Source: Mactra quadrangularis (taxonomy: Eukaryota > Mollusca > Bivalvia > Venerida > Mactridae). From it: a DNA stretch of 64,000 nucleotides. The DNA lies in NCBI GenBank assembly GCA_025267735.1, contig CM046304.1, forward strand, positions 28,399,381 through 28,463,380, written 5' to 3'. Position numbers and translations under genes: made by a program. Below the pieces are notes generated by a model that searched no databases, was not told where the DNA came from, and saw nothing but the letters and a program-made list of their open reading frames with translations. Shown piece by piece: positions 5,386-54,499 of this stretch (its first letter is position 1; every line of letters begins with the position of its first letter).

Positions 5386-5497
5386 ATGATGGCAATAGTG
5401 TGGCTAGTTACTTTGTTAAGTGTTATATCAGGAAGTGGCTCATTCCTGCTGGATAAACCGAAACCTCATATAATTTTTATAGTTGCAGATGATCTCG
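5386..5497 (+). CDS. Arylsulfatase exon 1: signal peptide and DD metal motif
   Basis: ATG at 5386, directly followed by a second ATG; either could be used. The exon encodes a short hydrophobic leader and then [12 protein letters not shown], the first sulfatase metal-binding motif. It ends after the first base of a Gly codon at donor CTCG|GTAAGA. The acceptor at 5359 suggests that this is not the first transcribed exon. Confidence 0.9.
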
Positions 5498-22350: not shown

Positions 22351-22505
22351 ACAGTGTAGGCGCGGAAAATATGTCGCGTACATTTTAAGCTTCAAAATTA
22401 ATTTAACGCACTGGATAAGTCTTTATGTTGGCTAAAGTGATTGTTGAACCTGTCTTCTATAAACTGTGAAAATTTTGGACTATAAAAATAAATAAATAAA
22501 GGATT

Positions 22506-23846: not shown

Positions 23847-24129
23847 TAATTCCTCTAGTTTTAATTCAGTTAGCACCAATAATCCAAATACAAGTATAGT
23901 GTGTTCCAGTAATAATAATCATTCACAGGAGAAAATTTCAAATGAATCAAGCAACAATATCATTCCACAAGGTCCACACGTGTCACGCACAAAAACACGC
24001 AGCATTAGACGTACACACTCGGCAAGTCCATATGGACGAAATGTGTCAACTAATAAACGGTTTCCCCCTGTTTCTAAAAATAGATCTCAGGTGTGTGATG
24101 TTACATGTACTGACCAACAGGAGAAGTAG
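23847..24129 (+). pseudogene. Shifted continuation of LINE ORF1
   Basis: Frame +1 relative to ORF1 carries NNSSSFNSVSTNN and then a basic stretch (RTKTRSIRRTHSASPYGR), ending in TAG at 24127-24129. Composition matches the ORF1 tail. The frame is the same as that of the endonuclease that follows; only this TAG separates them. Confidence 0.55.
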
Positions 24130-31630: not shown

Positions 31631-32189
31631 GAATTATTTAGAACAAGCATCAGAAATGCGTTGAGAGAACGTATATCAAAAGCACATACAGAAAACAAAA
31701 CATTTAGACTCATTTACCAAGCGTCACGAGATGGTTGCTGTGTTAAAGCATTTAGAGATAAATGTTTGGAGAAGGGACCTACATTGACGGTTTTGTATGG
31801 TAAAGATGGCACAGTGTTTGGTGGCTATACGAGTAAATCATGGAGATCTGGAAACCGTGTGGCAACAAATGACAACGAAGCGTTTCTCTTTTATTGTCAT
31901 CCTGGCGAGACGACAAAATTTTTAGAGATTAGTGAAAGTTGTTATGATCGTGCTATTACATATCACGATGAATGGGGCCCTACATTCGGAGGTGGCAGAT
32001 ATATTACTGGAAACGATTTGCAAGTTTTTAGGAACACAAAGGAAATTCCCAGAAAAAATGGCTATTTTGAATTGAATGGTAAAACAAATTATGACTGTAT
32101 CTACAAAGCACAGGAAGCAGGTTTTGACGCGAAGAGTATAAATGGAGGAACGCTCATTGTAAAAGATTTAGAAGTCTTCGGATTAGAAC
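31631..32189 (+). CDS. IFI44-like exon: TLDc domain
   Basis: Acceptor CTTCCTCAG at 31622-31630. The frame is open from the first base (ELFRTSIRNALRERISKAH). TLDc hallmarks: FRLIYQASRDG (residues 25-35), KGPTLTV (48-54), FGGYTSKSW (63-71), EAFLF (83-87) and WGPTFGGG (115-122); it then ends TLIVKDLEVFGLE. TLDc occurs in OXR1, NCOA7 and TLDC2, and at the N-terminus of IFI44. The exon contains no in-frame ATG, so translation starts in an earlier exon. Donor GAAC|GTATGT, phase 1. Confidence 0.9.
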
Positions 32190-35100
32190 GTATGTATATT
32201 TACAGATCTAATTTTAATACTTTGTTTGAAAAACAAATAAAGTATATCGAACGCATGCATACATAACATATCACGAATCGTGAGGTACAGTATGTAGAAA
32301 AACAGTAAAATATGATCAACTAAATAAACATTTAATTGTACATTACATAGTTATCATATTGTGTTCATTAATTATAAATACTAGATTTCTGAAGCGTAAT
32401 TGTAACGGGTGTTCCTAAAATACTATGATTCGATCAACTTGGTTTACATCGATATGTCGATCGCCAAACAAATTTCACCAAATGTATTTATGTCCCCTTC
32501 GCCTAAATCACGATTCGGGTTATCACTGTGTGCCTTCACAAGCAGCTAATTTATAAAAGTAAACTAATGGAACATAATATCCTAATATTTAATATTTGCT
32601 AGCATTTATCAGTATACAATTTGAATAGAGCATGTTAATTAACACTTCACCAAGTTCAGAATTTGACTTGTACAAATGCGTTGTTCACACAAATATATGT
32701 TTGTTGCAAATTAAACTTCTTTAATATTAATTGTCAGCTTATGTTTTGAGCATCAGTCGCAGCCCTATGTAAAAGTAAATCGAAACCGTAATTAGTAATT
32801 GATAGATTGAATATTCTCCTAATTATGCAAGTATAGCAACGATTCTTCTTCAATTGATTTTTTTCTAACTCGTTCCCACAAGAAAGGAGAGTAGGTAAAA
32901 CAACCTTTCTCGTTCCCTCAAGTTAGGAGAGTAGGTACATATTACTAACTTGTTCCTACAACTTACGGGAGGTGATATTTTTTTCTAATTCGTTTATACA
33001 AGTTAGAGAATGGGATAAATGTTATTGGTACCTCTTTCCCACAACTAACGAGAGGTGATATTTTTTAACTCGTTCCTTCTAATTAAGGGAGTAGGTAACA
33101 TTTTTTCTTACTCGTTCCCATAACTTAAAAGTGGTGATGTCAATTTTCTAACTCGTTCCAACAAGTTTACTCGATGCTTTGTTTTCACAGCATACCTCCT
33201 ATTACAAGTTAAATATATACTCGCATCCTCTATTATCTATTGGCTATATCTCTTGCTTGTTTCTGCCATTCAGTCTTCACCATTTTAACTGTGTATATGT
33301 ATCCTTCAACATGATTAATAACCTGTTGGTTTTTTTATTGCAGCTTTTGATTTTTTCAACGATACGGTAATGTAATTTTACTAATTTTAATCGGCTAATC
33401 CAATGATGATTCAATGAACATTTAGATTTTTGGTTATCAATTAGTTGCAGGTTGATACTTAATTAAACTCATATAGCTAAAATTGTTTGGAATATATGTT
33501 GTGTGTCTTATGCATATAAGATATTTTGGACGTTTTCATACATGCTGTAACAGAATATATTTTCGTAATTCAGCTATAATACTTAAATATAATTTCTCAT
33601 ATAAATGATTATGAAAATATACCCGAATGTGAAATAGTAAATTCTATATGGTTTGTCTTGAAAACAGGTTTACATTTAAGTTAAAGCAAGGTTTTTGAAG
33701 TCTACTTTTAATATCACAAGCATTCGACTCTTAACATTAACTGTATTGCACAGTTTACAGTGCATAACCCTAACAGGAACCCATTTACACCTGTGTGAAA
33801 GGAAGCAATCGTAGGTAAATTTCTTACTAAAGGAAATAAGCAGTTCCCTTGGTGAGATTTGAACCCAGGATCTCTCGATCCATAAGCGCGCGTACTACGA
33901 CTGGACGGCTGCTGCTAGGCACATATAGAAACAGTGATGATTGCGTTGATGTTAATTTTTTTATGTTATAATCGTAAGTAATCTAGCAAAGGTTTTGTAC
34001 TTTCACTTACGAAATTAATGTAAATTTAATGGCTTATTTACATTTATATAAATATCGTTTTATCTAAGTACCCATTCCTTATTGGAAAACCTTTATAAAA
34101 CAGACATGACTTGTGTCACAAAAGTGCATTTATGCCTATGAAATCTTTGCATATTTTATCAAAGAAAATGGAATGTGAAAGAAGAATTTCATCATCATGT
34201 TCGGACGCTCATGTAAAGTGTTTCAACATACTAATGACTGGTATAATAGGTGCTGGAAAAACAAGCTATTGTAGAACTATTAACATAGCAAGTACAAACG
34301 AAATACAAAATTATGCTGGTCCAATTGCACAGCAAGGTGAAAGTGTTACAAGCAAGGTACATATGTTATTTTGTTATTTTTCATATTGATTACTTATAGT
34401 CAAACATTGCTTTACAAGTTTACAAACAATATAATAGCAGGAAACGCTCGATATTGTCTATTTTTTCTCAACTGTCAAAGTTTGAATAATTTCACGATGA
34501 TTGATTACACACTATCATAATACCATGGATGTAAAATAAAGAGCACGAAGTCACCGTGAAATTATTCATGTTTAGACAGAACTTGAGAAAAAAAAAATAA
34601 CAATAATGACAAAAAGGAAATGTTTATAGTTACTGATATTTTGTCAGTAGGTGTTTATCGATCTAGAATCAAGCGAACGAACGTTAATTTGATTTCATTA
34701 CAACATATTTAAGCAACAAATTCATGTATAACCATGCTGGAAACATTATTATTAACTGTATCGATGTTTTTGAACATTTTCTTTATTATTTTATTCAAGC
34801 TGGTTGAAGTAGTTATCAAACGCAAAGATGTTTGTAAAATTCGAATGTTGGATATAAGAGGTTATGAGAATGGGAGGACTTACAAAGAAGAACTTGGACT
34901 TTTGATAAAGGGGAAACTAAAAGATGGCTATAAGGTTAGACTCATTATTATAGTTTAATTTTCTTAGGGGAACGGGCAAGAAACCTTCCATTTTGAACAC
35001 AAACGGTCTTACTGATCTTTGCAATTTGACGCACCAAAGGTAAAATGTTTATTTACTTAAAAACATGAGGCAAAATTTACATTAGAATAATTCCATAGTT

Positions 35101-38100
35101 CAACTGTTCAAATAAAAGTATGTTTGTGTGGCTACTCAATAAGATTTCACTATCCAACAAAGTATTTTTTTACTTACAAACCGAAAGTTTAACATCCAGA
35201 CTGCGTGTCATTCTTTACACACACATTTGAAAACGAAAAGAGAGTACATATCGTATTCTAGGTCATGCGTTTATTTGTATTTTTGATAATGATCTTGCCC
35301 ACTAAATAGGTGAATAAGCTGATGTATTAACAACATTTTAATGATTTAAACATACCACTTTGATATTTAACATTTATTTAAATAGTGCGTATGCACACGT
35401 TAAATTCAATATAATGATATGTTTATAAAATAAATTAAAATTAGGAAAAATATGGAATTGTAAAAATAATCCACTCCAAAATCAAGGTGTGTAATGAAAC
35501 TGGTTATGTTTATATAAGCTATGTTTACGTGGACGACCTGTGCACGATTTTGATATGCATCTATATCCACCGAGGGTTTGAAGTACATTGTACTTTGTAT
35601 CTATGGGCTGATATTCTTGGAGCTTTATTTATCATTTATCATTTGCTTAAACAATGATTATATTAAAAGCAGAAAACAAATTAACGATTTTGTCTTCATA
35701 CGCTGCACTATATTCTACTGCGTACCAAAATCACCGAATATTTTGATGCGTTGTGCGCCTTAGAATAGAGTTGATACCTTCGGAGCTCATTGAATTGGAA
35801 TTTACGGACCCACAGCCACTGTCACTCAGTTTGTAGAAGATTTCCACCATTTATTGAAGATTTAATTCCTCACTACTCTACATGAATATCTAATCTGTTA
35901 ATAATGGGAGAATTTAGTCTACATCTAGAAGATGTCTCCATTTCTTTGGTCTAGAGCAGCATGTAAATTTTAAAACACATATCCGTGATAACATGTTAGA
36001 TCTTGTACTTACTGAAGTAGTAAATAGTATTCGGGTAAAGAGATGTGATCAGGAACCGTTTTTATCGGATCATTTTGTAGTTAAGATATTAATAAATGTT
36101 GAAAAAAAGAATATTTTGTGCAAATTCTGTAAATTTCGCAATCTCAAAAAAGTCATGAAAAATTTGTTTCTTATTTAAAGACATTACTTTTGATTGTGAA
36201 GATGTAGATTCTTACGTGAATATTTTTGCGTCAAGACTTCAAACCACTCTTGACAAGCATGCTCCAATATTAAAAAAACAAAGATTCATAGGGCTCCAAA
36301 ACCATGGTTTACAGATAATCTAGTGATACTTAAAAGTTCAATGAGAAAACAAGAAAGATTATGCAGAAAAATATGTAAAGCCTGAACAATTCAAAGCTTT
36401 CAAGGTTATGAGCAACCGTTATCATTATGAATTGAATGAGGAAAAGTCAAATCACTTAGTCAAAGATTTCTTGATGCTAAAGGTGATACAAAATATTATA
36501 TAATTTAGTTGCAGAAATGACAGGCGTAAGATCTGATATCCAATGCCGAAATGCCATTCTGATCTCTCCATAGCAGAAAATTTTGCTGATTATTTCTAAA
36601 ATAAAATTTCAAAAGAATCCTTGCTACTCCAACAGAAGGATGAACCTAGTCTTGACCATTTTAAGGATTTCACAATAGAAGAGGTCAGAGATCTTATTAT
36701 ACCAAATCATCTGATCTAGACATATTGCAAAAAAAACACGCTGAAATGTTACTTAAAATAATTATTACCTCTAATTACGCATTTAATAAAAATTCTGTTG
36801 AAACATGGTGGAAAGAGGCAGTTGTTAAGCCTCTTCTCAAGAACGTGAGTCTGGATCTGAAATATTCTAACAATAGACCAGTTAGTGATTTGTCCTTCTT
36901 ATCTACAGTAATTGAAAAGGCCATTTTAAATAGATTGAATACCAAACATTCAGTCTTCATATAGACGTTTTCACTAATGTGAGTCAGCCCTTCTTAGATT
37001 CGTTAATGGCCTACTGGTTGGTATGGAGAAACTAGACGTTACTGCGTTAATAACTATTGATCTGAGTGCTGTATTTGACACTGTTGATCATGAGATTTTA
37101 TTGTAAGTACTTAATAATCAATATGGCCTACGGAACAGTACACTTCACTGGATTGACTCATACCTTCGTCCACGTGCATGTTGAGTCAACGTCAATACTA
37201 GTTCATCATCTCTTCGTCCATTAGATTGCAGTGTTCCACAAGGTAGTTGTTTGAGTCCATGGCTTTATCTTACCTATGCAGGAACCTTAATTGAATGATT
37301 CCATCTGATATATCAGTGCATGGTTTTACAGATGACCACACTGCCAATAAAATATTCTGTCCTAACAATCAGCATTAAGAAGCAAATGCCATATCTGATT
37401 TTAAAAAGTATTCCGTAACTATAAACTCATGGATAATTGAAAATAATTAAAAAATGAACAACTCATATACTGAGTTTATTATTTTTGGAAGCAAAGCACA
37501 GTTGAAAAAATGTTTAACCCAGTTAATCAATATTGCTGGTGAAACTGTAAAATCTGTTTTTTATGTGCTTTTCTTAGTACAACTTTAAGCTTTAAAGATC
37601 ACTTCAAAACAAAAAGAAGAACTGCCATGTTCAATTTTTACATATCAAAAGTATATGAAAATATTTGGATAAATATGCAGCGGAAACACTCGTCCTATTT
37701 TAGGTTTTACCCACATTGATCATGTATGGAATCTCAAAATGTGATCTATGCAAGTTTCATCGAATTCAAAACATGCGTGCCTAACTAGTATTAAGGTTAA
37801 TCATTAGACAGTTCAAAAGATACTTTGTAATCACTGCCCTGGTTACTAGTCAAAGCAATATTAAACTTTAAAATATGTACTTTCATGTACAACTGTTTAA
37901 CTGGAACCGCACCTGCAAATCTGACTGAAATTCTCCAAAAGCATGCACAAAGCAGATCTGGTCCTAGATCTGCGAAACCAAAAGACCATAATTTTGTGAT
38001 ACCAAAAAATAAGAAAAAAAGCATTCAGTGACAGAAGCTTTAGTACAGTGGGTCCCGTGCTATGGAATAAGCTACCAGATGATGTCAAATTATCACCTGC

Positions 38101-41100: not shown

Positions 41101-44100
41101 CTGTTCCGAGAATAATGCAGGGACATCTTCATTTCTGTGTTTATTTAAAGTCGCATGGACTATATTTTATGTGATGTCACAGAAATAATAGTCTAATTTT
41201 GCTTGTACATTTTTTCCTTAAGATAGTGGTCTGCAAATATACGCAGAAACACACAAGCTATAACAAATATATAAAAACGACAAAATGAACGCCTTTTCGC
41301 TAGAGAAGAGTTAAGTGTTAATTCGAGTAAAAAGTGTAAGTGAACAACAATACATAAAGAATCGTTGGCTAAAGGGAGTTACTATAAATAAATAATTGTA
41401 AATAAACATGGCAATAACTTAAAAAAACACGTTAATACGGAAGATACACACACCACACTTTATTTACACCAGGCACAGCTTCTACTAAACTTGTGTCAGT
41501 AATACATTAATGTATTATATTTTAGTTTCCAGATAAGCCTGGAAAGCCTAGTGAACTTGTTGATGATTGTAACATTACTCCAGACAGAATCATGCATACT
41601 CTATGTGTAGTCATTGACGGAACAAAGTTTGAAGTTCAAAGTGAACAAAATCTAAAAGATTTGAGAGATATTTTTAAAGAGGCACACACCCAAGGTAATG
41701 TTTATATTATTGTTTTATTAGCATCATTACAGTTTAAATAAAGTTTTCCATCTATATATGATATTATGTCTTTATACAGAAATTTGTATTGTATTTGTAG
41801 TACTTTCCTAATGATTATATCTAACTGTTAACTGGTGTTTGGTTTATATAACATCTGATATTATTATTTGTTGTTAATATCATATCGTAATGTAAGGTTT
41901 AGATTAAGCGTTTTCATTTTTTAAATTGTATTTATGCATGCTGTGAGAAAGAGAAAATCACTTTAAAGTCTACAATAAACTAGAGCTGGGATTTTATATA
42001 ACAGGGATTTGTAACGACATAGATTTTCATCAAATTTCACTGTCTTCGCTTTTATTTCGACATATCCGGAAAACAAGTATAACAAGTTTAAATAAAGATA
42101 TCCACATGCAATTTTGTACCAGTACCATTAAAATTGACATAAAGATTAGGAAAATGTGTTTCTAGATGATTTTGAGGTAAATTACGCTCACAGACTGTTT
42201 CACAAAACAATGCATTTTCCCGGTGATCCGTCATTTTTAGCCCCATATTACATCAACTGAGGTAATATTTTCGGTCATAAACTGCATAATATTTTGTCCA
42301 AAACTTCAGAAACATTCACAAGTTGCATAGAAGACATGTACAAAACATAAATCAAGTTTTTAAACTCTTGAATAGTTTGTACAACCTGCTTCAGCCAGTT
42401 ATAGACAGTGACGACCGTGAAAATTCAAAAAAGCACTTCGTTACAAATCCCTGTTATATAGAATCCCTGACTAGAGTGATACATATAACATACGTCAACG
42501 TCTGTTACAACATTACAAGTCATGTGCATTTGCAACTTGCTTTTATAATAGAGCATGAGACTGGAGGGTGTCCCTTAAATGTAAAATTTAGATGCTTTGA
42601 AATCTGTATTGCTTGTCAAATTCCATTTGCACTATCTAAAGACATTATGATTTTTTAATTCAGGGATTCTTGTCTGTATAATTGTTACACACGTCGAAAA
42701 CGTGTGTAAATATGTTCAGAACTCTCTAGATAATATTAAGAGGAGTGTAAAGGTTAACAACCTTATGGTGAAAATAAGCGAGACATCAGGAATTGGCTTA
42801 GATGATATATTTCCTGTTATTAACTATACTGATGAAAAGTCCATCGACGAAGTTAAAGACATGCTGGCACTGAGGGCATTATCAAAAATGGTTGAACATG
42901 CGAGGGAATTTGTAGCGCAAAATATTGGTAAATACATGTACTGAAAATTGATGTTTTTCAGGTAAATTGTAAAAATGAATTTTCTTGATCCCTTTTGGAA
43001 CGATGTCAAAACATCGTTCCAATGGTAGCAAGAAAGTATAAGATTACACTTCACGCTTCAACAAGTTTCAACATAGACAAAGAGGCGTAGTTCAGGCGTG
43101 ACACTCATTAAAATCTCATTATAATAAAAAACTACGCCGGCTTGTGTTGTCGGTCGTTAAAATTATTCACAAATGTATATTATCTAGATTTTCCTAACAC
43201 CAGGTGGCGCTATAAAATCCACATTCTCGCTTCAACATAGACTCCGCCTTCAATACCTTAATGTCTTGGACGGAGCTTGTCGTTTAAAAGGTTAAACAAA
43301 TTGCAGGAAGCGTTTAAATTTTATACATTCAAGAATTATATATATTTAACATTACGATAGCGAAACGCAGAAGTGTTGTGTAAAACCATGATATTTATAT
43401 TAAACATTAATTCGGATAGACAAAACATTGAGCTAATTTCTCCACGATTTATATGAGCGACTCACTAACTATCTAACGCTGTATGCGAAAGTAAACAACT
43501 TACATGCCCAGAGTGAAAATCCGCCCTCCAAAATATTTAATCGAGTAAATATTGGTCGCGTTCTCGTATCGTTTCGTAACTCAAATATAGTTTCTATGCA
43601 CCACATTAGCTTTTTCCTATATTGTATAAACTTGTATCAGTCAGTAATTCAAGCTCATGTAGAGTCAATTTAATAATTTTTTGCAGCGATCAAAATTAAT
43701 TTTAGTCATTTGTTTGGTAAATAATTTTAACTTGTTTGTAGTTTTGAATGGAAATTGATAAAAACAATATAAGATGTGGCAGCATTTTCCAAACCTTTTG
43801 GTATTTATGTATTTATTTATTGGATTTAACGCCGTATCAGCACATGTTAGGTCATTTCACGGCGTCCTAACCTAGCTTTCCTGGACCCTTGTCTGTAACC
43901 AGTACTCACCTACCCTTCCACACGGCCGGAAACTTCTCCATATTATCTTATCAATGGAGGAAAATTGACATTATTGTCTAAGTTTCATGGAAGGGTATAA
44001 CCTCCCCGGTTGGGATTCGACCCTTACCCCCCTCAGGACACAAGATTCCAAATCCCGACACGCTACCAATTGCGCTTTCGACCCGGGTCAAACCTTTTGA

Positions 44101-47100
44101 TATTTGATTGCAATGACATACATGTATTCATCGTGTCTAGTTAGACGTGTGCATACTTAATTAAGATATCTAAAAGAAGCTACGTCTACTTAACTTTGAA
44201 GGGACGTTACTATGGATTTATGTGATAGAAGTTATGCCTCTTTACTGTTTATATTAATTGGTTATTATTCTTTGAGTGATTTATAGTTCTGTTATATTAG
44301 CCTGTCACAACTTAAATAATTACACGGTTTTGAATTTGTTGTTTTGAACTTGTTTTTTCAACTATATTCAAAATTGCTACATATATGGTTAGATCATCAA
44401 TAATTAATATGGATGGGCGGCTCAATGGTTTAAAAGAAGATAAATACTAACACATTCACTGAGGGTGTAATTATTCAAGTTGTGACAGGTTAATGTAATA
44501 GAACTAGATTATGTTTGATAAAGTAAGATATCCCTTGCCATGAGCAAAACACTCGAAAAGTCTATTGCTGTCCTTGGACTGCTCTTGTTAAATGATATTA
44601 ATTGATACTTAATACATTATTTTATAGATAAAATTGCAGCACAAGTTTGATATTTTGACATTATTATGATTATAAATAAGTTCAGGACATCGTTCCCCCA
44701 GCACTCCAGTGCTTTGATTATATTACGCCGCTTATAAATACATGTAAATACGGCGGAAACTGACCTAATGTTACTCTTTGGGCATTTGTCTTATCAGTAT
44801 TGTCTTTCCCTCTCACAAAGACCCTAATTCCTCCCTGCAGGGATAAATATATTATTATTTTTGGAAGCATGTTTATTGTCAAATCTCTGTAACCTATGAT
44901 GGCTTGTACATGTACAGAGGAATAGAATAAATTGTGAAAAGTAGAGTTATCTTAACGACTTACATTATGACTTACACAATGTTAGACAATAAGGATGTTA
45001 CCGGAGCATAATTATATCGTTTTCTGTTTACAGGACGCATTAAGGTAAGCATCTGCATATTTCTATTCTAGTATTGTTATTAGTTATTCTTAATTTGTGG
45101 CTTTTGTCAACATTTATCCACTGACTTTAGCGTTAGCTTTACCCGGCAACAGTTTTCATGAAAACCAAAATTGTGAACGACGTGATGATAAATTCAATTA
45201 AAGCGCTAAAAGCACTGAAGTTGTTCAACATAAAAAAATATTTTGCTTCGGTCACTTGTTGTGCTTAAATTTGTAGAATATGATACCTGAAACATAGACT
45301 GCAGATCTCTCGTGGTACGAAATATATCTTCAAAACTGTGCCATTTGAACTTGTTGATTCAACATGAAGATCCAATGTCATTCATTACACAGACCTTTGA
45401 AAACGAAAATAAAATACGGCTATGTACTAGTATATATACCCATTGAGGTTTAAACACTACTTGTACCTATGTATTAGTATTCCTGTTATTAGCCAGCATT
45501 TATTACAATTAAATAATAATATTATTTTTTAAAAAAATACTTACATTTAATGTGATACGCAGCACGACTTCCTGTTCTCCTATTACTTAACCTTAAAATA
45601 ATAAATTCGTGAATTTACGGAGATTTCATACGGGAATTCACGACTATGCATACAGTGCATGTTTTATGTTGCCAAATTATATTTGTTTAATTTAAACATT
45701 TCTTTGTAATACACATGCTTTATAGTGTTGAGTTCCTTTATGGACCTCAAAAGTAGTTTTTGTTGTTAGGTTTAACAACTATAATCAAATGTTTCAACAT
45801 ACATGCTAAATAAGATACTCTATTATATACAGATAGAATATATACAAGCAAAATTGAAAACTGTGGAAGGAAATGGATTGAACATATTGTGTGTTGGAAG
45901 GGTTAATGTAGGAAAGTCTTTCTTTATTGATTCAATTATGTCTACGTTCAAGAAAGATCTAATTCATAGAGCCAGTGGAGGTAAAAAAAGAAATGAAGCA
46001 TTATCCTTAGTTCCTGACACAAAACTGGTATTTTGTTTATTTATATATTTGTATTTGTACAATTGCACAATTTCGATGAGGAATATGAAATGTAATGTTT
46101 AATGATAGTGGCAGTAAGCAATTCTGGTGATAAAACAAAAATGTGTTAATCATTATGTCATTCATAAACCGTTTTTTGCTATTTTATTTATCAAAGAGCT
46201 TTTGATACCGTTAATAGAGATGCAAACAGGCATCCATTGTAAAATGAACAATATGATTAAACGTATTATAATGATGTACAATCTTGTATCAAGTTTTCAA
46301 GTACTATTGAGCTTACTGATTTTTTAAAAAAAACCAATGTGAACCTTTGTCTCCATTATTATTCATTATGTTTATAATTGACATTGTTGATTGTTTTATT
46401 GTGAACGCATTGACTGAAAAAGATTTAAAGTTTTTATCAATGTACACGATTCTGTTTGTTGATGATATTGCTTTTACTGAAAAGTGGGGTTTAAAAGTTA
46501 TCGTAAATAAGACAAAGGAAGTATTTTTGAAAACAAAAGATTAAATAACCATCCTAATTTTTTATAAATGGGTGTAACTAGAAATGGTTGATAATTTTAT
46601 ATACCTAGGAATTATTTTTTCATACAATGGTATAATGGTATTACCAGTGAAACACTAATTGAACAAGCAAATTCGTTGAATTAATATCCCCCGCCGAGTA
46701 CTTGTTTTTACTAACACAACAACTGGAGACATAAGGCTTTATTAATAAATATAAAAATCCATAAAACCATAATAGGGAACATACATAACTCCATGTTTAA
46801 AATTATCAGGACATGCCAATCAGATGCAAATTTCTTTTCTGTATTGATGGTTTCCATAAAATCTTGTTGAAATCAATCCAGCTGTTGCAAACAAATAGCA
46901 ATATTTCTCTATTCGAACACTGCACAATTAATCAAGGGCAATAACTCTGAGCTGAAAGGTCTGACCAGAACAAGGTGACGATATGCGCGTCTCCTCTAGA
47001 TATTGATGATTCCCAAAAAGTTTCGTTGAATTCCAGCCATTAGTTGCAGAGAAATAGCGCAGAATTTTTTTTCCTCTATTATGCATACTGCATAACTAAT

Positions 47101-50100
47101 CAAGGGCCATAACTCTGAGTTAAAGAGTCTGACCTGAACAAGGCAACAGAATGCCTATCTCCTCTTGGTATTGAAGATTCCCATAAAGTTTTGTTGAATT
47201 CCGGCGAGTAGTTGCAGAGAAGTAGCGTGGAAACGATTTTTACTCTATATGCATACTGCATAACTAATCAAGGGCCATAACTCTGAGGTTTAAGTGTCTG
47301 ACCGAAACAAGCTGAAGATATGTGCATCTCCTTTTGGTTTTTAAGGTTCCAATAAAGTTTCGTTGAATTCCAGCCATTAGTTGCAGAGAAGTAGTGCGGA
47401 AACAACTTTTACTCTAAATGCATACTACATAAATAATTAAGGGCCATAACTCTGAGTTAAAGGGTCTGACCCGAACAAGCTGACGATATGCGCATCTCCT
47501 CTTGGTATTGAAGGTTCCCATAAAGCTCGTTGAATTCCAGCCAGTAGTTGCAGAGAAGTAGTGCGGAAACGACTTTTACTCTATATGCATACCGCATAAC
47601 TAATCAAGGGCCATAACTCTGGTTTAAAGGAATTGACCGGAACAAGCTGACGATATGCGCATCTCATCTTGATATTGATGATTCCCATAAAGTTTCGTTG
47701 AATTCCAGCCAGTAGTTGCAGAGAAGTAGCGCGGAAACGACTTTTACTCTATATGCATACTACATAACTAATTAAGGGCCATAACTCTGAGTTAAAGGGT
47801 CTGACCCGAACAAGCTGACGATATGCGCATCTCCTCTTGGTATTGAAGGTTCCCATGAAGTTTCGTTGAATTCCAGCCAGTAGTTGCAGAGAAGTAGTGC
47901 GGAAACGACTTTTACTCCATATGCATACAGCATAACTAATCAAGGGCCATAACTCTGAGTTAAATGATCTGACCGGAACAAGCTGACGATATGCGCATCT
48001 ACTCTTGATATTGATGATTCCCATAAAGTTTCGTTGAATTCCAGCCAGTAGTTGCAAAGAAATAGCGCGGAAACGACTTTTACTCTATATGCATACTACA
48101 TAACTAATTAAGGGCCATAACTCTCAGTTAAAGGGTCCGACCCGAATAAGCTGACGATATGCGCATCTCCTCTTGGTATTGAAGGTTCCCATGAAGTTTC
48201 GTTGAATTCCAGCCAGTAGTTGCAGAGAAGTAGTGCGGAAACAACTTTTACTCTAAATGCATACTACATAAATAATTAAGGGCCATAACTCTGAGTTAAA
48301 GGGTCTGACCCAAACAAGCTGACGATATGCACATTTCCTCTTGGTATTGAAAATTCCCATAAAGTTTCGTTGAATTCCAGTCATTAGTTGCAGAGAAATA
48401 GAGCGGAAACGACTTTTATTCTATATGCATACTACATAACTAATCAAGGGCCATTACTTTGAGTTAAAGGGTCTGACTCGAAAAAAGCTGACGATATGCG
48501 CTACTCCTCTTGATATTGATGATTCCCATAAAGTTTTGTTGAATTCCAGCCAATAGTTGCAGAGAACTACTCCGGAAACGACTTTTACTCTATATGCATA
48601 CTACATAACTAATCAAGGGCCATAACTCTGAGTTAAAGGTCTGATCCAAACAAAGCTGACCACATGCGCATCTCCTCTTGATATTGATGATTCCCATATA
48701 GTTTCGTTGAATTCCAGTCAGTAGTTGCAGAGAACTACTCCGGAAACGACTTTTACTCTATATGCATACTACATAACTAATCAAGGGCCATAACTCTGAG
48801 TTAAAGGTCTGATCCAAAAAAAGCTGACCACAGGCGCATCTCCTCTTGATATTGATGATTCCCATAAAGTTTTGTTGAATTCCAGCCAGTAGTTGCAGAG
48901 AACTACTCCGGAAACGACTTTTACTCTATATGCATACTACATAACTAATCAAGGGCCATAACTCTGAGTTAAAGGGTCTGATCCAAAAAAAGCTGACCAC
49001 ATGCGCATCTCCTCTTGATATTGATGATTCCCATTAAGTTTCGTTGAATTCCAGCCAGTAGTTGCAGAGAACTACTCCGGAAACGAAATTCGGAAGGACG
49101 GATGGACGGACGGACGGACGGACAACGCCAAAACTATATCCCCCTCCCGATTTCATCGGCGGGGGATAACAAGCCTTATGTGCTTATCACAATTTGATAA
49201 GGTTAGTTTAGGTATTAAAACAAAATTGTCTTTATTTGATTCAATGATTACTCCAATACTTTTGTACGGGGCTGAGGTCTAGGGGGTTTATAACCACATT
49301 GAAATCGACAAACTACATTTTCGATTTTGCAAATCTATATTAGGAGTAAAACACCAAGCACCCGATTTTTTTTGTTTGATGAAGTAAGATAAATATTGCC
49401 ATTAACAAAACACTTGAAAAGTCTAGTGCTGTCCTTGGACTGCTCTTGTTATTTAAAGTCTATTAATTGTACATTATTCATAGATAAATTTGCTGCACAA
49501 GTTTGATATTTTGACATAACTATATTCTTTATCTAATAAATAAGCTCAGAACATCGTTCCTCCAGCACTCCGGTGCTTTGATTGATAATAAAGCTAGTGT
49601 GTAAGCATTGTACTATTTTACTTTTGAGTTTGAATGTTAATATGATGTATGCAAAAAGAACTAGATAAGTATGTATATATTTCTAAATCTAAATAGAACC
49701 CATACTAAACTGTAAGTTCACGATGTATGTTCAGTGTTTTCAATTGTACAAAAAGGTTATTTCTAGGCATTCAGTATAGGTAACAAGGTGAATACAATAG
49801 TATATACGTTCAATTTCAGCTTCGTCGATACCATTTAGGTATAACAGATGCACTGAGAAATTACCACGAGGCAAATGTTCACATTTTTGATATGCCTGGA
49901 TTTAGCCCAAAGAATAGGATAAGTTCGGAGCAAATAAACAAAGTCGTCGAAGGTCACTGTGCAGAGGGATTTGATGTAAGTTTGGTTGGTAGCTTCGAAC
50001 AGAATAACTGTTTTTTAATAATCAGTAATTCGCGACTATACTTAAATGTAAATTATATAGATACATTCCAGTTAAATTACAGGATAGGGAAACGATCCAA

Positions 50101-53100
50101 TTATATTACATGCATTTACAAACATTTTAAGAAATTGTAAGATTGGTTTTGAATTCAATGTACTACATTGCATTTCTACAACTTTTATTATATTTTAATG
50201 GATTTATATGCCTTAAATGCGAAATTACAATTCACTTGTGTTGCTTTGTGGTTATTACATGTTTGCTTTCAATGTATTGTTGATTCTGATAACTCGTTCA
50301 AAGTTTATAGGTCACATATATTAACAGCGACATCTTCTAACAATATATTCTTATCCAAATCTTGTGGCATTTATAATTGACGTACAATGGTTTATAATTG
50401 TAGTTTAAGACTCCAATCAACGAGGAAATGAGTGATTACATACAAAACCCTGAATGGATGAATAGAATTCACGTCGTTTGTTTTATTCTTGACAATAAAA
50501 GCCTTGATAAGCCAGCGGAAGAGAGGCGTATGATTCAGAAAGTAATATCTAAAGTTCTTACTCCAAAAGGTAACTTTATTTGACCATTACATTAAGTACT
50601 TGGAAGTTAATTTCTGTCATGTTAACGACAAGTTAAAGATAAAAATATCGTAAAGTGAACTTGTTTGTACATGTTCCAGTTCGTTCTGTGGAATTTTCGA
50701 GCTTTTTCAGCATTTGCAAACCAAGCTTTGTCATAATATTTCAAGCATAAAACTTTATTAAGATTGTTTGTTAGCATAGTCACAATATGACCCCGGGAGT
50801 ATATCTGATGAAACTTTGTTGATTACTTTGTGTCCTATATCTACAAAAGGCATTCATTATAATTACCGTAGCAATTAATTGAGTCGGGCGTTTGATAAAA
50901 ATACTGTGTTAACATTGGTAAAAAACAAACGTTTTGAAATCCTTAAACATCATAACATTCTTATTTCATAAACTTATTAATAGGAACATGACCTTTCATA
51001 TGGTCAAAACGTTTAGCAACTGTATCGGTCCTACAAACTTTCAAGCATGCAATACTGAAGAAAACAACATGTTAGTTTTTCCATTTGATAAATATCATGA
51101 CTTGTAAAATATGAACTATTATATGGTTTCCAATACCGGAATTTATCGTTGAAAATAATTTTGTTATTTGTCACTGTTTGGATACGCCGTTCTGATGCTA
51201 TATTATGCATAAGCTTTTAAAAAGCCAGTTTCAAGCATATAATAAACAGACAATTTGTTTATTTCAGTGTAAGATCTATTTATTACACTCGTGAGCTAAT
51301 TATATTATATTTTCACTCGTGGCTACGCCACTCGTGAAAATATTGCATCTTAGCTGACTCGGGAAATAAAAATCGATCTTACCTCAAAATAAGCAAATAT
51401 CCTCTATATTGCTTTAAAATGTCTCATTGTCAAAAACCTTTTACGACTACTTAAGAATTCACTACCATGTGCAATTGATTATTATTGCAATTTATATTAT
51501 GTTTTAATTACAACAGGTATACCATACATTGTTGTTGTAACAAAACTTGATAAACTTAGAGAGAGAGGACTTAGTAGAGATGAAGTAATAAAAACGACAG
51601 CAGATTCATTTGGTTTAGTAGCTGGGAAGGTACATGCTGTACAAAACTATATCGATGAAATACAAACTTCAAAAGCAATGGACATTCCTATAATTGGTAA
51701 GTATAACTTTGCAATTTGTTAAAGCCACTAAACGAAGCCAAATTCTTTATCATCTATTTAAAAACAAGTAAAACCATCAAAAAGACAATAGAATATAACT
51801 GCCTTTGGATTATAATAACTCTCTCTAGCGGGTTCCCTTTTAGGGATCAAGTTATTCAAAATATCAATTTCTTATAAAAGTAGGGTACTTTTATAACATG
51901 CAAATTAGATTACGGAGATATCCTCCCAGCCAATCAAGTTGCTTAAAAGTGTTTGATAAAATTTACACAAAATTGTAAAGTGTTGGATATGTCATATCGT
52001 TTTTCCAGTGATTTACTCGAGAAATCAGTGCATGCAAATTTTGAGTACGCAAACATCTAAACTGATGCTAAAAAGAAACGCCTCATTTCTACTAGGTACA
52101 TAATTTTCGTGATTAAGAATAAATAAGGAAACATTTTTGTATAACGTAAGACTTAATGGGTTCTTTTCTTTTTCCCGTCAGTATATGTTCATGTATAAAA
52201 CTATTTACATGATTTCGTGAGTTTTAATTGGCTTTAGCACGAAATTCACTATACAAAACGTGTATTTATCAAAGCAGAAAATTTGTTGACTTAATATTTG
52301 AAGTTGTAGTTATTTTTAGCCACGACGGAATTTTCCGATCTAGTTGTTGAGTTCCGTGATTTTCCGTACAGTCATTACGTTGGGTTTTATCGCTAATTTC
52401 AAAATAATATTAGTATAAATTCTGGAGCAAATACTTGTGTTTTTTTGTATCTTATATGCGTTTTATATATTCATTGAATGTTTGCATGAGTTGTAAGCAA
52501 AAACATGATACTTGAGAATTATCAGCGTTCTATTTAGTAAAGGGGCTTTAATACATATATTAGACTATAACTAAATCGGGAGTTTTGTTGTAATAAACTT
52601 TACTTAAATAGTATTGTCAAAGCTTAACATCCTGGGTTACGGTCCGAAATTTTGTATTTATTTTTATATGCTTTCAATGATATGTTGAATTATTGAATGA
52701 AAATGTAATGTGAAAATGTAAACTCTCATACAATCTTACACAAAAAATGGCGAGTATCTTAACTATAAAGTTATATCTTCATGATCATTATAAAGCATAT
52801 AATTACAACCAAAACGAAATAATATAGTTTGATTGGTCAAAAGTGAACAGGTGACTTGAAAAAATGTGTTTTCATTTCCGTATAAACGCAGTTGCCAACA
52901 AGAATTCATTAATATTCATGACTTTAAATTACGTCATGCCGGTGCTAATTTCATGAACGAAAAATCTATTTTAGCTCTGTCACACGCAAAACAAAAGCTA
53001 TGCATGTCAATAAAAGAAGTAAATCATCGAATCATGAAAAATGATCCGATGATATCATATTTAAAATAAAATAAGAAATAAATGTTAACCGAAATAAACA

Positions 53101-54499
53101 TTCCAGTTTCACTTTTATCTTTACTATAAATAGCTAGTTGACCTCGACCTTGATAAACGCGCGGGAAAAGCGTAAAACTTTCAACTTGTTTACACGATTT
53201 TTTAAGCTTTACAATCTTGGTTTTCCCTTCCAGTGTTCTTTCTATACAAATTAGAATCCAATTACTTATATTTCTTTGCATAAATGGTTCTTGAAAATTG
53301 CATCGAAGCGGAGAATAAAATGGCTGACGGCTGGCATGAAAGACCTGTGTACGACCAAGATTATTCCGCACTACAATGCATTCGGCTCTTACGCACTAAT
53401 ATATAGTTCCTCATATCAACGCGAATTCCGCCCAGAAAGGTTGTAATTAAAAGGAATGAATTCATAGAAACTGACTTTCATCGAAATATAAATGTCATTT
53501 TGATGATAGCTAATTTCAGCATAAAGGCCAAAAGTGACATTCAGTTTCTATGAATTCATTCCTTAAAGAATCGACTAGATGTGTTAATTTTGTTATCTGA
53601 GATCTGGCTTGGTTTAACGAACACTTTCTTATCTTAAATTGCTTGATAAACCTTAATATTATATTTTAGCAAGATACAAGATAAGATACTAGATACAAAT
53701 ATTTATTAAGTAATATAGGCATCTGTCCCAAATAAAATATATGCATTATACAAACTGTCAATTCATTGGATACTTTGTTCAATACAGATAAACAAATGTT
53801 CATAAACTTACATAAACATATTTTCAAAAGCAAAAGTTAATGTAACTAAATTAAATGAAGGTTTATAGTTTTACAGTAAATATATGAATAAGGAAGATCA
53901 CAAAAATAATTAACCCAATTTTTTCTAAATAACATCGCTAAATCTATATAATTAGCAATTGCAGTATATAGTGTTAGATCAAACTTTTTCCATAAAGAAA
54001 TGTATTTTAAAGAAGACGGTTTGTCATTAAGATAATTAAGTTAATATTGCTTCCTAATAGAATTTGGTTTCGTACAAAATAAAATGAATTTCATCATCAA
54101 GTGTAGATTTTCATTATATTTTTAGCATTTTAGTTTAAGTGCGTTTCGCAAAATATTACTATTTATTTTACTCTAAAAAGTCTACATTAAGAGTAGAATT
54201 TTTATCATAATGCTCTCAGTTAAGGATATTTTATTTGAAGCATGCTTAAATCTGTGCAAATTATGAGTGCGTTCGTGATACCGGGCCCTGGTAACATGAC
54301 ATGCAAATTGTACATTTTTGCTGTAAAATAAGCAAGTAACTGTATAATCAAATACCATTAAAATAATAAGTATTAATCTTTATCATTTAAAACAGGTTGC
54401 ATGCAAGCTATCGTAGAAGAAGGTTGTTTCTACTATCAAAACCCTGACAAACAAACATTATATCAGCGGAGACCTGTTTCCAGCGATGAGGTTCGGTGA
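31631..54499 (+). CDS. IFI44-like gene: TLDc plus two tandem G domains (model)
   Basis: Exons: 31631-32189, 33344-33366, 34165-34356, 34800-34934, 41526-41694, 42664-42927, 45034-45044, 45833-46027, 49820-49975, 50404-50569, 51517-51696, 54396-54499. All are GT-AG and join in one frame to 717 residues; the first coding exon is not found. Domains: TLDc (about 20-186), G domain 1 (P-loop GIIGAGKTS 220-228, DIRG 276-279, THVE 368-371), G domain 2 (P-loop GRVNVGKS 473-480, DMPG 540-543, TKLD 632-635). Vertebrate IFI44/IFI44L have TLDc plus one G domain and are interferon-induced; a role in innate immunity is inferred. Exons c-f and h-k share intron phases (0-0, 0-0, 0-1, 1-1), supporting internal duplication. 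Alternative: two adjacent genes, the second starting at ATG 45803. The joining microexon is the weakest link. Confidence 0.65.
32190..32860. other. Intron sequence, nothing recognised
   Basis: AT-rich start of the intron between the TLDc exon and the 23-nt microexon candidate. No gene, hairpin or dispersed repeat found. Confidence 0.35.
32866..33175. repeat. Imperfect minisatellite, ~43-50 bp units
   Basis: About seven units built on AACTCGTTCCCACAAGTTAG followed by GGGAGTAGGTAA or GGAGGTGATATTTTTT. Unit length drifts between about 43 and 55 bp. It ends 170 bases before the microexon candidate. Confidence 0.8.
33344..33366 (+). CDS. Candidate 23-nt microexon linking TLDc to G domain 1
   Basis: A strong polypyrimidine acceptor (GGTTTTTTTATTGCAG) is followed 23 bases later by donor ACG|GTAATG. 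It takes the phase-1 end of the TLDc exon to phase 0, encoding PFDFFNDT. That is what the next exon needs; direct joining of the TLDc exon to the P-loop exon is out of phase with every acceptor I see there. Confidence 0.5.
33765..33925 (-). repeat. tRNA-derived SINE-like element, third family
   Basis: On the minus strand the sequence reads a tRNA-like head with GATCCTGGGTTCAAATCTCA (B-box GGTTCAAATC) after CAGTCGTAGTACGCGCGC. A body with AGAAATTTACCTACGATTGC follows. The other end was not defined. Confidence 0.55.
34165..34356 (+). CDS. IFI44-like exon: P-loop of G domain 1
   Basis: Encodes VKCFNILMTGIIGAGKTSYC, the G1 motif GxxxxGK[ST], in the same place as the vertebrate IFI44 P-loop. The exon ends AGCAAG|GTACAT in phase 0. 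The 5' boundary is uncertain: ATCAAAG at 34164 is chosen because it alone is in phase with the microexon; CAG at 34103 is a stronger site but needs phase 2. Confidence 0.85.
34455..34602. repeat. 148-bp fold-back directly after the P-loop exon
   Basis: The left arm 34455-34496 ends GTTTGAATAATTTCACG and the right arm 34555-34602 begins CGTGAAATTATTCATGTTTA. Further out, TTTTTTCTCAA pairs with TTGAGAAAAAA. The loop is about 58 bases. It is a small inverted-repeat element within the intron. Confidence 0.75.
34800..34934 (+). CDS. IFI44-like exon: switch II (DxxG) of G domain 1
   Basis: Acceptor TTTATTCAAG. Encodes KIRMLDIRGYEN; DIRG is the G3 motif and aligns with the CDSLG of vertebrate IFI44. 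The exon ends GGCTATAAG|GTTAGA in phase 0. It is followed by an intron of 6.6 kb filled with retrotransposon relics. Confidence 0.85.
35190..35765. repeat. Dispersed repeat, copy 1 (interrupted)
   Basis: CATTCTTTACACACACATTTGAAAACGAAAAG, and further on GAGGGTTTGAAGTACATTGTAC with TCATACGCTGCAC, correspond to the repeats at 45365-45600 and 63630-63900. The middle is diverged or interrupted. Confidence 0.45.
35780..38400 (+). pseudogene. CR1/L2-like retrotransposon relic
   Basis: Pieces in order: endonuclease C-terminus (NMLDLVLTEV then SDHFVVKILIN, 35990-36090), linker (PKPWFTDNLVIL), RT start (WKEAVVKPLLKNVSLDLKYS, 36800-36880), palm (LITIDLSAVFDTVDHEILL, 37050-37105), CSVPQGSCLSPW, and the late motif FSTVGPVLWNKLPDDVKLSP (38040-38095). 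Numerous stops and frameshifts break it. It ends near 38310-38400 with two copies of CCTTTAAAGGTGA(T/G)(A/G)TTTCGAC. It fills the 6.6-kb intron of the IFI44-like gene in sense orientation. Confidence 0.85.
38700..40500 (-). pseudogene. Minus-strand LINE reverse transcriptase relic, SINE-interrupted
   Basis: Read on the minus strand: LPERQFGFHAERGTSDMIFA and FVDLTKAFDTVSRNGLWKII (40290-40490), FISTLRQFHDG (about 40255-40290), then the SINE at 39911-40225. The RT resumes with GVKQGCVLAPTLFSMV, LTISTKKTEVMFQPA-like text, LTYLGSTHTSN, and near 38710-38790 a terminal ISLISHQRTHKTH resembling the C-terminal zinc finger of this LINE group. Stops and frameshifts abound. The endonuclease half is missing. 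Confidence 0.85.
39911..40225 (+). repeat. tRNA-derived SINE, family B, with target duplication
   Basis: Head GCCGCCCGGCTCAGTTGG, B-box GGTTCGATTCCCGGGCGG, body TACTTTCGTGGAGTTTGGTC, ATGGTTAACAGCTAAATC and TAGGTTGACTGACCGCC, tail GGCGTTAAACCCAAC then A-rich. It is flanked by CCATAACCT at 39902-39910 and 40226-40234, a 9-bp target-site duplication. This is the best-preserved copy in the window. Confidence 0.92.
40501..41525. other. Intron remainder, nothing recognised
   Basis: AT-rich sequence between the LINE relic and the next IFI44-like exon, with no gene or repeat I can name. Confidence 0.35.
41526..41694 (+). CDS. IFI44-like exon: central beta-strand of G domain 1
   Basis: Acceptor TTATATTTTAG. 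Encodes FPDKPGKPSELVDD, then DRIMHTLCVVIDG, corresponding to the DRIHCVAFVFDA region of vertebrate IFI44. It ends ACCCAAG|GTAATG, phase 1, one base into a Gly codon, exactly as exon 50404-50569 does in the second G domain. Confidence 0.85.
42664..42927 (+). CDS. IFI44-like exon: G4 motif and C-terminal helix of G domain 1
   Basis: Acceptor TTTTTTAATTCAG. Encodes GILVCIIVTHVENV (G4-like THVE, as THVD in human IFI44). It then runs through ISETSGIGLDDIFPVINYTD to the helix LALRALSKMVEHAREFVAQN. It can leave at donor ATTG|GTAAAT (42928) in phase 1, or read on to TGA at 42942-42944, ending GKYMY. The second option gives a protein that stops where vertebrate IFI44 nearly stops. Confidence 0.88.
42997..43259 (-). 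repeat. Dispersed repeat ending in a hairpin, copy 2 (inverted)
   Basis: It starts with the hairpin GGAACGATGT - CAAA - ACATCGTTCC and ends AGACTCCGCCTTCAATACCT, the inverse of the repeat at 12871-13143. It lies in the intron between G domain 1 and the 11-nt microexon, 53 bases past the alternative stop codon. Confidence 0.7.
43800..44095 (-). repeat. tRNA-derived SINE, family A (inverted copy)
   Basis: The minus strand reads from CCCGGGTCGAAAGCGCAATT (head) through TCGAATCCCAACCGGGGAGG to the tail GGCGTTAAATCCAATAAAT. It matches 18429-18722 over its length, with a diverged B-box. Confidence 0.82.
44284..44506. mobile_element. 223-bp element with 42-bp terminal inverted repeats
   Basis: Left TAGTTCTGTTATATTAGCCT then GTCACAACTTAAATAATTACAC; the inverse of the right end differs at only a few positions. 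No coding content. A TA on each side may be the target duplication. Confidence 0.85.
44512..44720. repeat. ~210-bp dispersed repeat, copy 1
   Basis: TGTTTGATAAAGTAAGATAT through GCTGTCCTTGGACTGCTCTT, GCACAAGTTTGATATTTTGA and CATCGTTCCCCCAGCACTCC. It matches 49373-49585 throughout. It begins six bases after the 223-bp element. The AGCACTCC(A/G)GTGCT palindrome is near its end. Confidence 0.75.
45034..45044 (+). CDS. Candidate 11-nt microexon joining the two G domains
   Basis: GACGCATTAAG is framed by a strong acceptor (TTTTCTGTTTACAG) and a near-consensus donor (AAG|GTAAGC). It turns the phase-1 end at 42927 into the phase-0 start at 45833 and adds Gly-Arg-Ile-Lys. Without it the two halves cannot be joined in frame. 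No transcript data are available here. Confidence 0.5.
45365..45600. repeat. Dispersed repeat, copy 2
   Basis: CATTACACAGACCTTTGAAA, CCCATTGAGGTTTAAACACT, TTATTAGCCAGCATTT and ACGACTTCCTGT are shared with 63630-63900 in the same order and orientation. Confidence 0.65.
45833..46027 (+). CDS. IFI44-like exon: P-loop of G domain 2
   Basis: Acceptor TTATATACAG. Encodes GLNILCVGRVNVGKSFFIDS, a second G1 motif. It is 195 nt, against 192 for the first P-loop exon, and both are phase 0-0. The frame is also open upstream to ATG at 45803, so a separate gene could begin there. Donor AAACTG|GTATTT. Confidence 0.88.
46110..46684 (+). pseudogene. LINE reverse transcriptase relic, 5' part
   Basis: Translated pieces: MNNMIKRIIMMYNLVSS, then LSPLLFIMFIIDIVDCF and a TILFVDDIAF box where the family has ADD, then WGLKVIVNKTKEVF. 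Premature stops and a deletion show it is dead. It continues at 49169 beyond the 2.5-kb insertion. Confidence 0.8.
46685..49168. mobile_element. 2.5-kb inverted-repeat element with a 168-bp tandem array
   Basis: It begins TATCCCCCGCCGA and ends TCGGCGGGGGATA, a perfect 13-bp inverse; the outer TA on each side is probably the target duplication. Inside, AAGGGCCATAACTCTGAGTT recurs 13 times at 167-169 bp spacing (46934, 47102, 47270, 47439, 47606, 47774, 47942, 48110, 48279, 48446, 48615, 48783, 48951). A GGAC microsatellite (49096-49125) precedes the right end. There is no transposase. It split an older LINE relic. Confidence 0.92.
49169..49370 (+). pseudogene. LINE reverse transcriptase relic, 3' part
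   Basis: Resumes the relic of 46110-46684: LGIKTKLSLFDSMITPILLY, GAEV, stop, GVYNHIEIDKLHFRFCKSIL, GVKHQAPDF. This is the usual post-palm region (FDSMVTP...YGAEVWG). It stops where the dispersed repeat at 49373 begins. Confidence 0.8.
49373..49585. repeat. ~210-bp dispersed repeat, copy 2
   Basis: Same order of phrases as 44512-44720: TGTTTGATGAAGTAAGATAA, GCTGTCCTTGGACTGCTCTT, GCACAAGTTTGATATTTTGA, CAGCACTCCGGTGCTTTGAT. Same orientation. Confidence 0.75.
49820..49975 (+). CDS. IFI44-like exon: switch II (DMPG) of G domain 2
   Basis: Acceptor TTCAATTTCAG. Encodes YHEANVHIFDMPGFSP; DMPG is the G3 motif. Phase 0-0, as in the matching exon of the first G domain. Donor TTTGAT|GTAAGT. Confidence 0.87.
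50404..50569 (+). CDS. IFI44-like exon: central beta-strand of G domain 2
   Basis: Acceptor TTATAATTGTAG. Encodes EWMNRIHVVCFILDNKSLDK, the same region as DRIMHTLCVVIDG in the first G domain. 166 nt, phase 0-1, ending CCAAAAG|GTAACT. Its twin is 169 nt with the same phases. Confidence 0.87.
51269..51382. mobile_element. 114-bp inverted-repeat element
   Basis: The left GTAAGATCTATTTATTACAC and right AAATAAAAATCGATCTTAC are imperfect inverses. Inside is a nested hairpin, ATTTTCACTCGTGG - CTACG - CCACTCGTGAAAAT. It lies 134 bases before the TKLD exon. Confidence 0.65.
51517..51696 (+). CDS. IFI44-like exon: G4 motif (TKLD) of G domain 2
   Basis: Acceptor TTACAACAG. Encodes GIPYIVVVTKLDKLRERGLS; TKLD fits the [NT]KxD guanine-specificity motif better than THVE of the first domain. 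It then runs through VQNYIDEIQTSKAMDIPIIG. Donor ATTG|GTAAGT, phase 1. Confidence 0.88.
51719..52551. mobile_element. Non-autonomous DNA element, TTAAAGCC ends, copy 3
   Basis: 833 bp from TTAAAGCCACTAAACGAAGC to AGTAAAGGGGCTTTAA. It matches 30010-30655 at both ends and has an extra internal part (CCCGTCAGTATATGTTCATG) also seen in the truncated copy at 31150-31485. It is therefore closest to the full-length form. It starts 23 bases after the TKLD exon. Confidence 0.8.
52552..53452. other. Intron sequence, no recognised gene
   Basis: The frames at 52866-53069 (+) and 53024-53371 (-) have no family-like content. Nothing else was found. Confidence 0.35.
53453..53562. repeat. 110-bp palindromic element, perfect 21-bp ends
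   Basis: Left GGAATGAATTCATAGAAACT(G) and right (C)AGTTTCTATGAATTCATTCC are exact inverses over 21 bp. The interior is not self-complementary to the same degree. Confidence 0.8.
53563..54395. other. Intron before the last IFI44-like exon
   Basis: Minus-strand text here (for example LWKKFDLTLYTAIANYIDLA) ends toward 53660 in a TATCTTGTATC-type repeat. It may be the 3' end of a decayed LINE, but no diagnostic motif is present. Confidence 0.25.
54396..54499 (+). CDS. IFI44-like last exon
   Basis: Acceptor ATTTAAAACAG, phase 1 as needed. Encodes CMQAIVEEGCFYYQNPDK and ends SSDEVR-TGA at 54497-54499. A weak donor (GATGAG|GTTCGG) precedes the stop, but no in-phase downstream exon was found. No poly(A) signal is evident nearby. 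Confidence 0.75.

Follow-up and report, generated by a model that had tools for sequence, protein, structure and literature searches.

The window analysed here is a 64,000-nucleotide (nt) stretch of the genome of the bivalve Mactra quadrangularis (contig CM046304.1, positions 28,399,381 to 28,463,380), and coordinates below are positions within it. Its forward strand carries, at 31631–54499, a predicted gene for an IFI44-like protein in which a TLDc domain is followed by two GTPase domains (G1 and G2), a layout referred to here as TLDc-G-G.

Exon structure of the predicted gene

Twelve exons join as a single open frame of 717 codons ending at TGA, with a coding length of 2154 nt and no internal stops (Table 1). 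All 12 exons are open, and the splice boundaries are canonical, with AG before and GT after every internal boundary. The encoded order is TLDc, G1, G2, and each of the four G1 exons that carry the P-loop, the DxxG motif, the following strand and the G4 motif has an equivalent in G2. The earlier note had proposed both the arrangement in one orientation and one frame and the equivalence of the four exon pairs in content and phase. Its coordinates, lengths, phases and motifs were confirmed, and the three introns that separate these exons lie at matching alignment columns.

Table 1. Exons of the TLDc-G-G gene model and a candidate start exon (HMM, hidden Markov model; E, E value)
Feature	Length (nt)	Phase	Position	Strand	Evidence
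TLDc exon	559	0-1	31631..32189	+	Pfam TLD 2.4e-18; HMM without window rows E 3.4e-48
Linking exon, TLDc to G1	23	1-0	33344..33366	+	ranks first among 51 candidates that keep the frame (ad hoc score 24 vs 21)
G1 P-loop exon (GIIGAGKTS)	192	0-0	34165..34356	+	HMM E 5.1e-9
G1 DxxG exon (DIRG)	135	0-0	34800..34934	+	HMM E 2.6e-6
G1 strand exon	169	0-1	41526..41694	+	HMM E 9.6e-4
G1 G4 exon (THVE) and G1 end	264	1-1	42664..42927	+	HMM E 2.5e-18
Linking exon, G1 to G2	11	1-0	45034..45044	+	ranks first among 89 candidates that keep the frame (ad hoc score 29 vs 23)
G2 P-loop exon (GRVNVGKSF)	195	0-0	45833..46027	+	HMM E 1.8e-9
G2 DxxG exon (DMPG)	156	0-0	49820..49975	+	HMM E 1.6e-4
G2 strand exon	166	0-1	50404..50569	+	HMM E 4.6e-7
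G2 G4 exon (TKLD)	180	1-1	51517..51696	+	HMM E 4.6e-7
Last exon, G2 end and stop codon	104		54396..54499	+	preserves frame; aligns with relatives' G2 ends; HMM alone E 8.6
Candidate start exon (MDNNTNIKHFVFK)		0	29336..29374	+	ATG-to-donor scan, donor score 12; phase fit alone

We scanned the 2059 six-frame open reading frames (ORFs) of at least 20 amino acids across the window with two HMMs built from database proteins only, with the window rows excluded (112 TLDc rows and 47 G-domain rows). One TLDc match and eight G-domain exons were recovered (E 2.5e-18 to 9.6e-4 for the latter), all on the forward strand and in domain order, and the next-best matches were at chance level (E 0.36 and 0.8). 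The source proteins had been found via the gene model or its relatives, so that the HMMs are independent of the window letters and not of the search. The scan ruled out a second TLDc domain or additional G exons elsewhere in the window; the 23-nt, 11-nt and last exons were individually invisible to it.

The 23-nt and 11-nt exons are needed because direct joins break the frame: splicing the TLDc exon to the G1 P-loop exon, or the G1 G4 exon to the G2 P-loop exon, does so within a few to ∼25 codons. Candidates open and compatible in phase inside each intron were ranked by an ad hoc splice-site score and, because the ranking uses such a score, the two exons are only likely to be correctly placed. 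No in-frame ATG was found in the TLDc exon or its upstream open stretch; the start therefore lies upstream, in an exon missing from the model. The segment at 29336–29374 is a candidate for it, among 15 phase-0 segments between 20001 and 31620 that run from an ATG to a donor scoring at least 9; the two segments that score 13 fall inside the long interspersed nuclear element (LINE) of this region.

This LINE, nearly complete in appearance, lies directly upstream of the gene (22500–27626, forward strand) and separates the candidate start exon from older sequence. It has three ORFs in overlapping frames: one of 446 amino acids has no Pfam match, another encodes an endonuclease (Exo_endo_phos, 3.3e-10) and the third a reverse transcriptase (RVT_1, 8.6e-35). 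The intron between the P-loop and DxxG exons of G2 holds a 168-bp tandem repeat of 12.8 copies (46929–49086), whose flanks (46320–46541 and near 49165–49380) resemble reverse-transcriptase remains by eye; the segment 46320–46541 is without a Pfam match.

Domain identity, clam relatives and origin of the second G domain

Both G domains of the window are, as judged by sequence profile, of the IFI44 type: an HMM of single-G IFI44 relatives (106 of 114 candidates, the other eight dropped for showing no P-loop pattern) gives E values of 1e-36 for G1 and 1.2e-29 for G2. Pfam labels G2 as MMR_HSR1 (3.9e-6), and G1 alone matches no Pfam GTPase family. Like IFI44 and IFI44-like proteins, the predicted protein has an N-terminal TLDc domain and, directly after it, an IFI44-type G domain; with two complete G domains in place of a single one, it is classed as a TLDc-G-G variant alongside the single-G proteins. 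AIG1 was unmatched in Pfam for G1 and G2 at E up to 1 (its matches in two of the relatives below, P0001 and P0005, are weak and below the cut-off), as was the KH domain in the G2 piece running to the stop. Searching the sequences of solved structures gave no close relative of the window G1 or G2 (best E 0.053 and 0.052), and the same search with a clam profile returned only generic GTPases (e.g. EngA and septins) and TLDc proteins.

The P-loop and DxxG motifs are intact in G1 and G2, and the G4 motif reads THVE in G1 and TKLD in G2. In the alignment, TKxD occurs in 11 of 11 other G1 domains and in 8 of 8 G2 domains, the window G2 included, and the D-to-E change is absent from the other 48 rows. 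Two aligned fish N-terminal G domains carry THVD, so replacement of K by H is tolerated within the family. Since the other 11 G1 and seven G2 domains are all TKxD, the alignment marks THVE as a change peculiar to this copy, not to the TLDc-G-G architecture. The earlier note had read the pair of motifs as a sign that one site may be divergent; the motifs themselves stand, whereas the divergence belongs to this copy and does not extend to other G1 domains.

A search with the whole model returned one protein, P0001 (747 amino acids, 30% identical over 94%), encoded in a 2834-nt contig that is probably a transcript, because such a length cannot hold introns of this size. A profile of the model and P0001 then gave 13 proteins (nine from Mercenaria, one from Ruditapes, two further ones and one oyster IFI44), and a wider profile gave 307 matches, of which the best 120 were listed. 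In each of the three protein searches, scoring was confined to the 7994 to 7996 candidates with the most words in common; the set of relatives thus consists of best-scored candidates and the best 120 of 307, and does not imply absence in other animals.

Among the matches listed, 130 proteins comprise 115 with TLDc-G, eight with TLDc-G-G, three with G-G, three from fish with G-TLDc-G and one from abalone with TLDc-G-TLDc-G. All three domains are complete in three of the eight TLDc-G-G proteins: P0001, P0002 (Mercenaria mercenaria LOC128558524 X2) and P0003 (Ruditapes philippinarum LOC132744342 X2). In the others, TLDc is represented by its end only (P0004), the second G domain is cut (P0005, P0006 and P0009), or the second G domain is a half-domain resembling G1 that may be a joined neighbour (P0007). 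Proteins with TLDc and two P-loop domains, which the earlier note had proposed to look for in other bivalves, are thus found in Mercenaria and Ruditapes, and these predicted sequences indicate that the TLDc-G-G fusion occurs in venerid clams and is not private to this gene.

The three complete proteins share the order TLDc-G1-G2 with the window, whose G1 and G2 fall in the matching clades. Identity between the window and P0002 is 77/183 in TLDc, 69/250 in G1 and 68/266 in G2; the window differs from the three proteins in its THVE motif and in a shorter linker. Single-G proteins such as Crassostrea gigas P0013 share the N-terminal TLDc domain and the IFI44-type G domain after it, with one G domain and not two. 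Vertebrate IFI44 has a single G domain; the three fish predictions (P0023, P0037 and P0050) nonetheless read G-TLDc-G. These and the abalone protein (P0014, labelled ‘LOW QUALITY’) also have more than one IFI44 G domain per predicted protein, in a different domain order. They could be multi-G IFI44 forms of another kind or the result of gene prediction running across adjacent genes, and they look like the latter.

Eight of the ten Mercenaria and Ruditapes proteins in the 13-protein set are named ‘uncharacterized protein’ and the other two interferon-induced protein 44-like. No description of the TLDc-G-G layout was found in searches of open-access papers. The clam layout is already present in public predictions.

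We placed the two window domains in a tree built from 49 G domains (12 G1, eight G2, plus single-G and fish rows). The partial second G domains of P0005, P0006, P0007 and P0009, the partial first G domain of P0012, the first G domain of P0014 and both G domains of P0050 were omitted, and 24 TLDc-G proteins from P0013 on were kept, hand-picked for spread. The 12 G1 domains form one group (100/98) and the eight G2 domains another (99/96), with the window represented in both, and a split with 98/94 support sets G1 and G2 together apart from the single-G rows and those of fish. Placing G1 among the single-G rows was rejected in the approximately unbiased test (0.015), as was, only just, placing G2 there (0.049). 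The G1, G2 and single-G rows can all be aligned across the whole domain, and the three introns inside G1 match three of G2 in column and phase (columns 71, 137 and 197; phases 0, 0 and 1). The aligner is blind to intron positions. G2 has one extra intron near its end, absent from G1.

Because the tree groups, the topology tests and the matching introns agree, an ancient internal duplication is the best explanation of the doubled G domain. In this scenario, the G-domain exons would have been copied within the IFI44 gene of a bivalve ancestor before the window lineage parted from those of Mercenaria and Ruditapes. Rapid divergence of this copy would have followed. We put the probability that the locus is one gene for an IFI44-like TLDc-G1-G2 protein, born by an internal G-domain duplication predating the clam split, at roughly 85%. 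The earlier note's proposal of a single such protein with a duplicated G domain is supported by the IFI44 HMM, the tree, the introns and the three complete TLDc-G-G proteins.

Alternative explanations

Several observations weigh against this reading. The gene model is drawn from genomic sequence alone, and its first exon is not in it. Between the two G-domain halves lie four AATAAA and four ATTAAA signals, read-through past the donor at 42927 reaches a stop within a few codons, and position 45803 holds an in-frame ATG; separate shorter products are therefore possible. The G1-G2 linker of the relatives, which is ∼24 residues longer and carries a W..R motif, is absent from the model, and a pattern scan of 42928–45832, judged by eye, gave no convincing exon for it. 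The window G domains also form long branches (2.03 and 1.94), for which the tree program issued a warning, as they may distort the tree.

The stop, the ATG and the poly-A-like signals would suit a pair of neighbouring genes or alternative products, with a TLDc-G form ending near 42944 and a G-only form starting near 45803 that never share an mRNA, and plain TLDc-G accounts for 115 of the 130 relatives among the matches listed, with three further G-G proteins lacking TLDc. Yet the frame is restored by the 11-nt exon, which has the top splice score of its 89 candidates, TLDc, G1 and G2 are complete within single chains of three relatives (for P0001, within the one 2834-nt contig), and the HMM scan showed no second TLDc domain or start region ahead of G2, so that we regard two genes as very unlikely. 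The long branches, together with an identity of only about 25–30% to the clam G domains, could instead mean that the tandem arose separately in the window lineage and merely resembles the clam one. The tree speaks against such a private origin, since holding the two window domains together was rejected (p-AU 0.016) and each groups with its positional counterpart, a placement left unchanged when the other is omitted; this explanation is highly improbable.

Decay of a functional clam gene into a possibly unexpressed copy is unlikely. In its favour are the long branches, a THVE motif unique among 12 G1 domains, the shortened linker (both of which would be marks of decay) and introns crowded with repeat and retrotransposon remains. 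The modelled exons are nonetheless all open, every splice site checked is GT-AG, the P-loop and DxxG motifs are intact in both G domains, and TKxD is intact in G2. As for a G2 that is an unrelated GTPase fused on and not a copy of G1, the differing Pfam results for the two domains and their different neighbours in generic fold lists would fit, but the IFI44 HMM covers G2, three introns match in column and phase, and G1, G2 and the single-G rows align over the entire domain. A fusion with an unrelated GTPase was rejected on the HMM match and the introns, and its probability is minimal.

Elsewhere in the window, a probable arylsulfatase gene of several exons is represented by pieces at 5383–18064 on the forward strand; these were recognized mostly by eye, and the one matched exon (Sulfatase, E 9.5e-5, 22.3 bits) is below the Pfam cut-off of 25. 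A 97-bp tandem repeat of 29.6 copies with inner 12-bp repeats occupies 329–3203. No tRNA genes were found in the window in a scan with bacterial settings.

Proposed mechanism and immune context

Paraseptin-type G domains (Toc34, septins and GIMAPs), which are related, pair between chains. On that model, the TLDc-G-G protein might be a cytosolic GTPase responsive to infection or stress, with TLDc as a docking module and with G1 and G2 pairing with each other within one chain. G2 would act as the nucleotide-dependent switch, and G1, with its THVE motif, as a weaker or less guanine-specific partner site in this copy. As a whole, this working mechanism is tentative, and the odds are somewhat against its holding in every part.

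Predicted models, whose predicted template-modelling (pTM) scores are 0.50 and 0.52, fall short of fixing the relative placement of G1 and G2. EngA/Der is a ribosome-assembly GTPase, and mt-EngA ranks first among the Foldseek matches for the clam G-G model. It likewise has two tandem G domains (PMC3466195), differs in its KH domain, and agrees with the G-G pair in order only, since the two arrangements fail to superpose (TM 0.24, root-mean-square deviation 22 Å). GIMAP8 is also described as an immune GTPase with several G domains per chain (three; PMC4201521); compared by description, it differs in belonging to the AIG1 family, and TLDc is not in that description. GIMAP2 is among the Foldseek matches. 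A further point against the mechanism is that human IFI44 and IFI44L are reported to restrict respiratory syncytial virus without needing the predicted GTP-binding region (PMC7459546).

The TLDc fold predicted for P0002 matches the TLDc of mEAK7 and NCOA7. The TLDc domains of several proteins are described as binding the vacuolar-type ATPase (V-ATPase), and those of Tbc1d24 and Tldc1, when purified, as not doing so; binding is reported to need G815 of NCOA7 (PMC8608904). The window, P0001 and three single-G relatives have the likely equivalent of this glycine, mapped via an mEAK7 alignment and spacing; its absence from P0002 and P0003 counts against the mechanism. The window TLDc keeps both the G815-like and the FGG glycines.

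The literature record on IFI44 relatives is mixed. Oyster IFI44 is reported to rise after poly(I:C) in dependence on an interferon-like protein (PMC8218723), and another oyster study describes it as lower in infected adults and cites earlier work in which young animals showed raised levels (PMC4198667). Poly(I:C) treatment of Manila clam is described as raising one IFI44-like gene and lowering one IFI44 gene (PMC7430831), and human IFI44 is reported to bind FKBP5 and dampen antiviral responses (PMC6712396). Because of this mixed record, an immune role of the gene is likely by kinship, while its sign is open.

A bolder proposal, which we consider doubtful, is that clams hold a separate IFI44 line with a built-in G-domain heterodimer (TLDc as dock, G2 as switch and G1 as partner), in which G1 in this species would be a regulatory pseudo-site without the guanine-specificity motif. 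If true, a second molecule would not be needed for pairing.

IFI44 is a widely used marker of the antiviral response, and the role of its G domain is unsettled. A natural IFI44 chain with two G domains, one of them altered at G4, would offer a ready experiment on the pairwise action of such domains. The finding also supplies a name for clam proteins that are mostly called ‘uncharacterized’, and shows that bivalve IFI44 changed in architecture, not in copy number alone.
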